Shown piece by piece: positions 24,843 through 27,457 of a stretch of 64,000 nucleotides of DNA. The notes under the pieces were generated by a model. The model ran no database searches. It saw nothing but the letters and a program-made list of their open reading frames with translations, and had not been told where the DNA came from. Each line of letters opens with the position of its first letter. Position 1 is the stretch's first letter. The stretch is from Saxibacter everestensis. GTDB lineage: Bacteria; Actinomycetota; Actinomycetes; Actinomycetales; Brevibacteriaceae. Where the stretch lies: assembly GCF_025787225.1 (NCBI RefSeq), contig NZ_CP090958.1, positions 3,582,550 to 3,646,549 of the forward strand, in the 5' to 3' direction. Both the position numbers and the translations under genes were made by a program.

Positions 24843-25229
24843 ATGACCGAGAGCGACCGAGCGCAGCCCCGGCTGAAGGATGTCCCCAGTTCCTTCGCCC
24901 AGTGGGCGGGCCTCGTCCTTGGCATCATCGCATTCTGCGTCGGGGTGTGGCTCCTGATCCTCGGCGATATGGCACCTGGCTGGATACTGGTGATTGTCGC
25001 ATTCATTTTTGCGGTCGGCGCCTTTGTGCTGGCTCCAGCAATGCGTCTCCGGCACCGCTACGTTGCAGACTACGGGGGTACCACCGCCACACTGTCGTCA
25101 CTCGAGGATGTCGATGAAGTGCGGCGTCTCCGCGACGAGGACGGACTCATCAATGCGGCCCGGCTCGTCAAGCGCCATCACCCTGCCGTGCCGTTGAAGG
25201 ACCTTGTCGAGTGGCTGCGCGCGCTCTAG
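24843..25229 (+). CDS. Two-span membrane protein with small C-terminal helical domain
   Basis: This 128-residue protein of unknown function has two adjoining membrane helices (AGLVLGIIAFCVGVWLLIL and WILVIVAFIFAVGAFVLAP). After a basic-aromatic linker comes a soluble tail (DVDEVRRLRDEDGLINAAR, then LVKRHHPAVPLKDLVEWL). That tail loosely resembles the ribosomal L7/L12-like C-terminal repeats seen in some actinobacterial membrane proteins. The match is weak and I give no function. The gene stands alone after the YdeI-like gene, which points the other way. Confidence 0.7.
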   Translation: MTESDRAQPRLKDVPSSFAQWAGLVLGIIAFCVGVWLLILGDMAPGWILVIVAFIFAVGAFVLAPAMRLRHRYVADYGGTTATLSSLEDVDEVRRLRDEDGLINAARLVKRHHPAVPLKDLVEWLRAL

Positions 25230-25555
25230 CTGGGCAAAGCTCGAAAGAAGCAGCTAGTATCGTTCGCCTCGCCTGTCGACCGGCCATCAACGGAGAGTCG
25301 TCGGAATAACGGCACGGGCAGCACGTCCCGCGCCGCGTAGAACCAAACAGGTCTGGCCTGTCGTTGCCACAGAAGAGGGGGACTCGATCCCCTACTGCTC
25401 GCTAGCGCTCACAGCGGGGGCCCACCTAAGGGGTTCGAACCGCTCTACCCAATATCGCCGAAAGGGACCCCGTTCACGTGGCCTTCGTGGCCCACGGTGT
25501 GGCGCGTGGTGGCAGTTCGGTCGGTAGCTAGCTAGGCTCAGCTGGGAGGTGTTCG
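25230..25555. other. Non-coding gap carrying direct repeat copy A
   Basis: 326 bp without a gene. It contains the 77-bp repeat described at 25377-25453 and the RBS GGGAGG before the GTG at 25556. The rest, including 25230-25376, shows no tRNA or conserved structure I can recognise. Confidence 0.55.
25377..25453. repeat. Direct repeat copy A (77 bp), left edge of cassette
   Basis: This stretch matches 27018-27094 at 74 of 77 bases in the same orientation. It starts with GGGGGACTCGATCCCC, a T-arm-like hairpin, and ends with GGTTCGAACCGCTCTACCC. The two copies flank the two coupled genes at 25556-26928. Confidence 0.85.
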
Positions 25556-26596
25556 GTGTATACACACATTGAGGGCGAGGCATCGGCGGTCCTGACCACG
25601 CCAACGTCTGGGCCAGCTGCCGGTGACGGGATACACGTCGAGTTCCAGGGCTGGCTCGGTGACGACCTGCTCGACCTGGCCGGCCACTGGATTGTCACCG
25701 GGCGACTGGCGGATGCGTTGCGCGCTTCACCACTGACCGGCTTCCGGTTGGAGCCGGTTCACGTCTCCTGGAATCCCCAATGGGATCTGATGCTCCACGA
25801 GCACGAACTGCCCGACCGATGGGAGCGACTAGTCCCCATCGGGTCGCGCAGCGACGGTGACGATTATGTAAACGAAATGAGTGCAGGCGGACTACTGGTC
25901 AGCGAGCCAGCCCTCGAACTGTTGCGCTCTTTACATCTCGAGCAGGCCGTCCTCACGCCGGTGACGGCACCCCCGTTGACCGAGACAAAGGAAACTGAGC
26001 GGCTCCGCAGGGCGAGAGCACTCCACGACGAGGCTCGCGCCAGAGCCGACGAGGAGCGAGCCCAACGGCAATCAGCTCAGGCGTCAGCCGACCGGGACCG
26101 GGATCGGAGGCTCGCCGAGGCACTGCAACGGCACCAGGCCGAATACGAAGCGTCCCCCGTACCTACCGGTGCTGTGGACCTGATCCGTGCGGCCCTCGGG
26201 CATCCGATCGATGATGACCGCGTGGCGCGCGTACTCGCACTCACCGCCCTACCCCTCGAGGTCGAGACCTTTCGCGAGGGCAAGAGCCGACGGCACGAGA
26301 TGCACAAGTCGCCTCGCGAGGGATTCGATGCCCGCTTCCTCAATGACAAGCTCGTCCGCGTTGTGATCCACCCCAGCGCAGACAGCGAGCTGTCAAGGAC
26401 GCTGATCGACGGCATCGACCTCTCCAGGGCCACACCCTGCGACGTCGTCGCGCTGCTCGGCGCACCCAGCGAGGCGCGATGGAAGGCACGCGGCACCCAG
26501 GTTTACGCCTACGGTCGCGACAAGATCATCTTCGGAAGCCTTGGTGACCAAATGGACTCGGTCGTTCTGATGCGGGCCCGGCGCACCGCCAGATGA
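25556..26596 (+). CDS. Unknown two-domain protein with central coiled coil; possible immunity-like N-terminus
   Basis: A GTG with GGGAGG six bases upstream starts this 346-residue protein. The N-terminal domain (about 20-140) has alternating hydrophobic strands and the pattern LTGFRLEPV, LPDRWERLVPI, GGLLVSEPALELLRSLHLE. This recalls the DUF1629/Imm11-type immunity fold, but only weakly. Residues about 145-200 are a charged coiled coil (ARALHDEARARADEERAQRQ). The C-terminal domain (about 205-346) has AALGHPID, FLNDKLVRVVIHPS and DVVALLGAPSE. I recognise no catalytic motif. It overlaps the next gene by ATGA. The pair lies between 77-bp direct repeats, suggesting a mobile or duplicated unit. 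Confidence 0.78.
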   Translation: MYTHIEGEASAVLTTPTSGPAAGDGIHVEFQGWLGDDLLDLAGHWIVTGRLADALRASPLTGFRLEPVHVSWNPQWDLMLHEHELPDRWERLVPIGSRSDGDDYVNEMSAGGLLVSEPALELLRSLHLEQAVLTPVTAPPLTETKETERLRRARALHDEARARADEERAQRQSAQASADRDRDRRLAEALQRHQAEYEASPVPTGAVDLIRAALGHPIDDDRVARVLALTALPLEVETFREGKSRRHEMHKSPREGFDARFLNDKLVRVVIHPSADSELSRTLIDGIDLSRATPCDVVALLGAPSEARWKARGTQVYAYGRDKIIFGSLGDQMDSVVLMRARRTAR

Positions 26597-26928
26597 GACT
26601 CGGCAGCAGCGAACACTATGGCTGGGAGCGGCCCCGCACGGTACGGCTGGTCCACGTCTATGACGGAGCCGACCTAGCAGGTGAGTTCGCACGCCTTCGT
26701 GTGCCGAGCGGCGCGAAAGGCGGTCCACTCGAAATCATGGCCCGGCGCCGCGCAGGCCGGCGCACGCCCTACAGGACGCCAGAGCATGGGGAACGATTAG
26801 AGATTGAAGCGTGGGAGCTAAGTCCGGATGAGTGGGCCGAACTCGATCTCAGTGAGGAGGTTGGAGACTCCAGGCCCTGGCGCCCTCACAAACCCAACCC
26901 TGATCTCTGGCTGTGGGTGGAGTCGTAA
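26593..26928 (+). CDS. Small unknown protein coupled to the cassette protein
   Basis: This 111-residue protein starts with an ATG overlapping the preceding stop (ATGA), so it is co-translated. It is rich in Arg, Glu and Trp and has no membrane helix or known motif. The C-terminal WELSPDEWAELDLSEEVGD and DLWLWVES parts are acidic-aromatic. A small acidic partner protein next to a larger one resembles immunity or antitoxin arrangements. That is inference from position only. Confidence 0.65.
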   Translation: MRLGSSEHYGWERPRTVRLVHVYDGADLAGEFARLRVPSGAKGGPLEIMARRRAGRRTPYRTPEHGERLEIEAWELSPDEWAELDLSEEVGDSRPWRPHKPNPDLWLWVES

Positions 26929-26983
26929 ACAGCGTTCAGCACGACCACGGCTATCCTCGCTGAGACTACCGCGTTGAGCGGGG

Positions 26984-26999
26984 GGGTTCGAGCCGCTCT
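26984..26999. repeat. Partial third copy of the repeat core
   Basis: GGGTTCGAGCCGCTCT at 26984-26999 recurs exactly at 27072-27087, and with one change at 25431-25446. It lies between the cassette and copy B. Confidence 0.6.
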
Positions 27000-27017
27000 C
27001 CTCGGTAAGTGGGAGAA

Positions 27018-27094
27018 GGGGGACTCGATCCCCTACTGCTCGCTGGCGCTCACAGCGGGGGCCCACCTAAAGGGTTCGAGCCGCTCTACCCAAT
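27018..27094. repeat. Direct repeat copy B (77 bp), right edge of cassette
   Basis: It is 74/77 identical to copy A and has the same orientation. It ends 52 bp before the tRNA-Ala gene. Its left end resembles the tRNA-Ala 3' end read on the minus strand (GGAGAAGGGGGACTCGATCC against GGAGGTAAGGGGACTCGAACC). Confidence 0.85.
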
Positions 27095-27146
27095 AAATAG
27101 AAGAAGAGCCAAGGCGATACTGCTGCCCTGACCCTTCTCCCATCGG

Positions 27147-27219
27147 TGGAGGTAAGGGGACTCGAACCCCTAACCCCCTGCTTGCAAAGCAGGTGCGCTA
27201 CCAATTGCGCCATACCCCC
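27147..27219 (-). tRNA. tRNA-Ala (anticodon TGC)
   Basis: The minus strand folds as a 73-nt cloverleaf. The acceptor GGGGGTA pairs with TACCTCC (one G-T pair), the D-arm is GGCGCAATTGGTAGCGC, the anticodon loop is TTTGCAA with TGC, and the T-arm is AGGGGTTCGAGTCCCCT. The 3' end is A followed by CCG, so CCA is not fully encoded and needs the CCA-adding enzyme at 58919. It follows gyrA and tRNA-Ile, the conserved order. Confidence 0.97.
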
Positions 27220-27352: not shown

Positions 27353-27383
27353 GGTTTTCTCCAACTAGATAGAAGATCAACCG

Positions 27384-27457
27384 TGGGCCTAACTGGACTT
27401 GAACCAGTGACCTCTTCCTTATCAGGGAAGCGCTCTAACCGTCTGAGCTATAGGCCC
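27384..27457 (-). tRNA. tRNA-Ile (anticodon GAT)
   Basis: A 74-nt cloverleaf: acceptor GGGCCTA pairs with TAGGCCC, D-arm TAGCTCAGACGGTTAGAGC, anticodon loop CTGATAA with GAT, and T-arm CTGGTTCAAGTCCAG. The CCA end is not encoded. It lies between the DUF3566 gene and DLW-39, the conserved gyrA-ileT-alaT order. Confidence 0.97.

Follow-up and report, generated by a model that had tools for sequence, protein, structure and literature searches.

What is the two-gene segment that lies beside tRNA-Ala(TGC) in Saxibacter everestensis, and how did it come to be there? The window, i.e. the whole 64,000-nt stretch of DNA analysed, had been described before in a sequence-only reading as containing two coupled genes between 77-bp direct repeats (74/77 identical), with the right copy 52 bp from tRNA-Ala and no integrase present. 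The core of these repeats is contained in a pair of 79-nt copies at 25376–25454 and 27017–27095, which have 96% identity, the same orientation and a spacing of 1641; such a repeat is far above chance expectation. The tRNA-Ala gene was found where expected (27145–27219), its 3′ end pointing toward the cassette, but the right repeat copy is 49 bp away rather than 52 bp. The two genes are coupled as described, the start of gene 2 overlapping the stop of gene 1 by ATGA, and no tyrosine recombinase gene is present in the window. The features are given below in window coordinates; the bit scores of the repeat units come from a covariance model that was built from nine of the 10 copies in the genome, whose scores are therefore not independent, while the tenth (612216) was detected with it.

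25376–25454, minus strand: tRNA-distal repeat unit with the palindromic core at 25382–25426 (covariance model R2, 61.9 bits)
25556–26596, plus strand: gene 1, 346 aa, with an N-terminal domain weakly similar to Imm11 (PF07791), a long predicted helix and a C-terminal domain
26593–26928, plus strand: gene 2, 111 aa, no recognised family
26983–26999, minus strand: partial short-arm copy AGAGCGGCTCGAACCCC just past the proximal unit (17 nt, 94%)
27017–27095, minus strand: tRNA-proximal repeat unit with the palindromic core at 27023–27067 (covariance model R2, 65.4 bits)
27145–27219, minus strand: tRNA-Ala(TGC), the anchor (ARAGORN; RF00005, 72.8 bits)
27383–27457, minus strand: tRNA-Ile(GAT), in the conserved gyrA-DUF3566-tRNA-Ile-tRNA-Ala block (ARAGORN, RF00005, synteny in relatives)

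In the tRNA-proximal unit a T-arm-like copy of the tRNA end, TCGAGTCCCC, comes after the core on the minus strand. The target tRNA-Ala(TGC) itself is intact, as seen from its RF00005 score of 72.8 bits and from a 3′ end that is the same as in many relatives. The codon GC of the cassette genes is ordinary (GC3 0.74 for gene 1 and 0.67 for gene 2, compared with 0.75 for gyrA). On the outer side, the distal repeat is adjoined by genes for an OmdA/YdeI-type protein (PF13376; 24067–24702, minus strand) and for a 128-aa probable membrane protein (24843–25229, plus strand).

A whole-genome DNA search revealed five more places with the repeat beyond the window. The covariance model search, on which the genome-wide copy statements are based, returned 10 copies of the repeat core at seven loci. 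These are tRNA-Ala(TGC) (two copies), tRNA-Val(TAC), tRNA-Ala(GGC), tmRNA, tRNA-Pro(CGG), tRNA-Gly(CCC) and a displaced tRNA-Ala(CGC) 3′ end with three copies in tandem. All 10 follow a tRNA gene, a tmRNA gene or the displaced tRNA 3′ end, in a single orientation, with ~12–130 nt between unit and tRNA. The tRNA loci were also read one by one, and neither this nor the model search showed a core copy away from tRNA-type loci in this genome, in which seven of 47 tRNA/tmRNA loci are carriers. The tie to tRNA proposed for the window is real and general. In contrast to the sequence-only reading, the repeat is not specific to the cassette and belongs to a family of tRNA 3′-end repeats; copies in non-coding positions elsewhere, which that reading would have counted against a cassette, do occur, and this objection applies in part, yet the architecture there is the same.

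Read in the direction of the tRNA, this architecture comprises a terminator-like hairpin (at most loci), a short arm, e.g. GGGTAGAGCGGCTCGAACCC, the core GGGCCCCCGCTGCGAGCGCCAGCGAGCAGTAGGGG and a stretch resembling a gene end. At several loci the hairpin, as read from the sequence, is separate and stands between tRNA and unit. Several units are ~100 nt long and hold no gene remains, and behind tRNA-Val the short arm is repeated. Other repeats were seen at tRNA genes of this genome. The tRNA-Lys TTT locus (L018, genome 342.2 kb) shows half a unit, with the short arm GCGGTAGAGCGGCTCGAACCC after a terminator-like hairpin and the core missing. Repeats of the TGTGATGAGTCGSGACATCG type begin directly behind several tRNA-Leu and tRNA-Ser genes (L051, L047, L053, L056, L050); the one in L051 adjoins a transposase-like ORF that reads as IS481-type, and in L051 and L050 a 13-nt tRNA-end copy recurs downstream, after AACTACACA.

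The stretch that follows the core was analysed by comparing the 25 nt downstream of each core with 46 tRNA/tmRNA 3′ ends. For six of the 10 units (tRNA-Val, tmRNA, tRNA-Gly and the three at tRNA-Ala(CGC)) the neighbouring gene was the unique best match among the 46, and for three more, including both window copies, it was tied best. Only the tRNA-Ala(GGC) unit failed, its own tRNA not being the best match. When 46 tRNA ends were permuted against 46 downstream regions, p was 1e-4. Direct repeats holding the target 3′ end are clear at tRNA-Ala(CGC), tRNA-Val and tRNA-Ala(GGC), the last with a 70-nt copy, and weak in the window, where the copied end amounts to 10 nt of the T-arm and is tied with other tRNAs. 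With a copy this short, the window alone would not reveal the gene-end rule. A T54-to-A mutation in the copied tRNA ends was considered but abandoned, the A being better taken for the final base of the core (GTAGGGGA).

The core is ~35 nt long, ends in GTAGGGG, with the GTAG partly within the stem, and has CCCC/GGGG arms in nearly all of the 14 cores. Pairing holds for 95.8% of cells in the alignment, with two-sided change in two pairs; folding of the core was no better than that of shuffled DNA. The palindrome is thus moderately supported. No Rfam family matched the unit.

Genes accompany the units at three loci: the window pair, a MntA-HepT pair and an HTH gene with a nucleotidyltransferase gene. 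Behind the displaced tRNA-Ala(CGC) 3′ end, three core units form an array (L059 6010–7275, genome about 611.0–612.3 kb), with a copy of that end after every unit, and between units 2 and 3 lies the pair of MntA-type nucleotidyltransferase and HepT (PF01909, PF01934). At tRNA-Ala(GGC) (L058 6430–8145, genome about 1986.4–1988.1 kb) a 1.56-kb insert contains a core unit, the HTH gene and a DUF6036 nucleotidyltransferase gene, and is closed downstream by the 70-nt copy of the tRNA (90% identity). This nucleotidyltransferase gene looks frameshifted.

Behind the tRNA-Ala(CGC) gene at 563.8 kb lies a tyrosine integrase gene, and the copy of the tRNA 3′ end at ~611.0 kb stands directly before the array. 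The segment from 563756 to about 611030, with the tRNA and the integrase gene on one side and the tRNA 3′-end copy on the far side, is probably an integrated island of 47 kb. Four PF00589 matches were found in the genome: two Xer-like (putative, named from position and score), the island integrase at 564 kb and one fragment. The island integrase is the only one near arrays, and none of the four is a cassette-specific tyrosine recombinase.

The gyrA-DUF3566-tRNA-Ile-tRNA-Ala block is kept in about 25 relatives, none of which has the repeat or the genes behind tRNA-Ala. This absence fits acquisition in the present genome, which is the sole member of its genus in the sample, the compared relatives being distant. 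In line with the sequence-only reading, the relatives compared have neither the repeats nor the genes at this locus; a genome with one repeat and no genes, which that reading had looked to as a sign of gain or loss, was not seen among them. No exact empty site was seen, the relatives being too distant to show one, and no circle was seen. The core was absent from the sampled relatives and the phylum sample; matches in three distant genomes of the phylum were rejected, having no tRNA near and a coding-like context. Nor was the core found in the viral contigs, phages and plasmids searched.

A scan of 84,980 species genomes with the exact core pattern returned four loci, one of which (L080) was rejected as a chance match. 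An Aeromicrobium MAG has the core behind tRNA-Val, and 22/22 nt after it match the MAG's own tRNA-Val end, which differs from the one in S. everestensis. In Nakamurella aerolata it lies behind tmRNA, and 17/18 nt of the own tmRNA end follow a second, variant core. A Nanopelagicales MAG gave seven covariance-model matches, the two weakest of them near threshold. At its tmRNA copy, 10 nt of the end are copied before the contig ends. Two of its cores stand behind protein genes (L135 1420–1620, L136 1370–1600) with the gene end repeated after the core, so that the target need not be a tRNA: a prs-like gene shows the order gene end, core, gene-end copy (27/28 nt) and partial core, while in the second case, which is one of the two matches near threshold, the end is repeated as GGTCGAGCGCTGA. 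Three further cores lie inside coding sequence (L129, L132, L133), in genes that were read as DUF222/HNH-type.

The proteins encoded in the window were searched individually. Gene 1 matches Imm11 (PF07791) over residues 36–72 (37 aligned) with 19.7 bits and E 5.8e-4, under the gathering score of 22.1. It is very rare, with two relatives, in genomes G050 and G511. The G050 relative (36% over 217 aa) has an in-frame stop and no tRNA within the 18 kb searched. The G511 homologue (L127 7669–8358) comprises the N-terminal domain only and lies near a gene (L127 8827–10107) that reads as a WXG-like secreted toxin, the C-terminus of which had no match in Pfam. Gene 1 was absent from the phages and plasmids searched, and gene 2 had no relatives among 99 genomes. 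For either protein nothing useful was obtained in PADLOC, NCBIfam or PDB sequence searches, and the AlphaFold2 models were poor (mean pLDDT 50 and 39.5). Gene 1 thus resembles Imm11 in its weak profile match and in the secreted-toxin-like neighbour of its homologue, and differs in scoring below the gathering score, in its extra helical and C-terminal parts and in a cassette without a toxin gene beside it. On these grounds gene 1 probably encodes an immunity-type protein. The resemblance to immunity folds suggested before persists as a sub-threshold match and a toxin-like neighbour, and not as a profile match above the gathering score. The earlier idea of a defence or toxin-immunity cassette gains from the two other unit copies that border toxin-antitoxin-type pairs, the function of the window proteins being inferred.

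Several known systems share part of this arrangement. CIMEs and accreted tRNA 3′-end islands have repeats derived from the target 3′ end, an intact target, no integrase of their own, being mobilised in trans or in cis, tandem accretion and toxin-antitoxin cargo (PMC5704250). Most of this finds a counterpart here, with cargo of the toxin-antitoxin type, and no tyrosine recombinase lies in the window; in contrast to CIMEs, the units measure 0.1–1.6 kb, one core stands behind seven tRNA/tmRNA genes, and there is no recognisable larger precursor. The additive flexible genomic island that Ca. Methylopumilus carries at tRNA-Lys varies from 330 bp to 42 kb in size and is marked by recurrent copies of the final 20 nt of the tRNA gene (PMC10872708). 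Recurring tRNA-end copies are common to both, but that island uses one tRNA and no palindromic core was reported for it, whereas here many tRNAs are involved and a conserved core precedes each copy. A Tycheposon is defined as a tRNA element of 4–200 kb with a tyrosine recombinase (PMC10872708), unlike the 1.6-kb segment and its window without such a gene. CALINs, integron cassette arrays without integrase (PMC11389934), likewise have small cassettes between palindromic sites, toxin-antitoxin-type cargo and no integrase nearby, but lack the CCCC/GGGG arms, the anchor at a tRNA end and the target-end copy after each site. An identity with integron attC sites was rejected on the same feature, the CCCC/GGGG arms read in nearly all of the 14 cores. 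The boxes at the foot of the attC palindrome are RYYYAAC and GTTRRRY, from which these arms differ. GTAG REPs are 20–40-nt palindromes that have GTAG at one end and are located mostly downstream of genes, sometimes inside them (PMC3733652). The core is like them in length, in the GTAG near its end, though this lies partly within the stem, and in both kinds of position, and unlike them in its 10 copies only, all at tRNA-type ends here, in the target-end copy after the core and in its cargo.

The architecture, its recurrence at seven loci, the agreement of most copies with the gene beside them, the cargo at three loci and the absence in relatives are established. We read the combination of an intact target with a copy of its end, small inserts with toxin-antitoxin-type cargo, and tandem copies as the trace of tRNA-directed site-specific accretion. 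The two-gene segment would then be an att-like cassette, non-autonomous and accreted at the tRNA-Ala(TGC) 3′ end, with immunity- or toxin-antitoxin-type cargo, an explanation that we prefer while holding it to be evenly poised between right and wrong. Each unit would consist of cargo or nothing, a short arm with the palindromic core ending in GTAGGGG, and a copy of the target 3′ end. A recombinase acting in trans may link the att-like stretch downstream of the core with a tRNA or tmRNA gene at its 3′ end; the target gene would stay intact with the unit behind it, and the gene-end copy would come to lie on the far side of the core. Short arrays could then arise through further events of this kind or through recombination among the copies, and cargo of the toxin-antitoxin or immunity type might be retained because its loss is costly. 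The gene-end rule seen with other tRNA-type sequences in Aeromicrobium and Nakamurella and the rarity of gene 1 also speak for this. Points against it are the short, tied copy in the window, the mismatch at tRNA-Ala(GGC), a genome in which no cassette-specific tyrosine recombinase was found, the usual restriction of an integrase to one tRNA end as against seven here, the failure to see an exact empty site or a circle, and the Nanopelagicales cores in coding sequence.

These last cores are among the reasons to consider, as the main rival, that the core is a palindrome similar to GTAG-tagged REPs or to MITEs which inserts or is retained at gene 3′ ends, where replication slippage or short recombination duplicated the gene end together with the core, genes being trapped later by chance or by homologous recombination. 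With ~35 nt and a terminal GTAG, the core has the size and tag of GTAG REPs (PMC3733652). The prs-like gene, with its 27/28-nt end copy and partial core, resembles a tandem duplication, which the partial arm at 26983–26999 and the repeated arm behind tRNA-Val would also fit. However, REPs are high-copy, as opposed to just 10 copies, all at tRNA-type ends here; the cargo at three loci is of a single functional kind; slippage leaves unexplained how a 70-nt tRNA copy came to close the 1.56-kb insert; and the core folds no better than shuffles. We consider this origin unlikely, though deserving of serious attention.

A different history would make the units what decay has left of the ends of larger elements integrated at tRNA genes, either prophages or integrative conjugative elements, in which deletions spared att sites and a few toxin-antitoxin or immunity genes. 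The tRNA-Ala(CGC) gene with its tyrosine integrase and the 3′-end copy before the array are as expected of an integrated island, the nucleotidyltransferase at tRNA-Ala(GGC) with its apparent frameshift would suit decay, and accretion of CIMEs through decay and repeated integration is documented (PMC5704250). Yet a single shared core at seven targets is not expected from unrelated islands, several ~100-nt units lack gene remains, and searches of viral contigs, phages and plasmids gave no core, which leaves decay distinctly improbable in our estimate. That the unit might instead have a function in the tRNA trailer, as RNA or as DNA, such as that of a terminator or processing signal, with genes between two copies by chance, would account for a constant orientation ~12–130 nt behind tRNA genes. 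It would hardly account for units at only 7/47 tRNA/tmRNA loci and for relatives that have the same tRNAs without them, for unremarkable folding and no Rfam family, or for a distinct terminator-like hairpin between tRNA and unit at several loci, and we regard it as very improbable indeed.

Accretion at the tRNA end, the reading we prefer, keeps from the sequence-only reading the repeat, the tie to tRNA and the type of cargo, and departs from it in the repeat not being specific to one cassette. What is unusual here is that one core serves many targets and that no dedicated tyrosine recombinase was found. An ordinary integrase uses one tRNA end, whereas the core occurs at seven targets. One quite unlikely extension would be a form of gene capture in Actinomycetota that is integron-like but unrelated to integrons. 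Its anchors would be tRNA, tmRNA and some protein-gene 3′ ends and its site the palindrome ending in GTAGGGG; one recombinase might serve many targets because the units carry the copy of the target end, and the arrays would gather toxin-antitoxin and immunity cassettes.

Mobile DNA of bacteria classically lands at tRNA ends, normally with one integrase per tRNA. A single short core behind seven tRNA/tmRNA genes, usually followed by the gene's own end and bordering toxin-antitoxin- or immunity-type pairs, does not fit this picture directly. If the units move, they would be among the smallest tRNA-targeted cassettes, and the core would provide a sequence handle for locating similar arrays and their recombinase. 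The arrangement suggests a small gene-collecting system built on tRNA ends.
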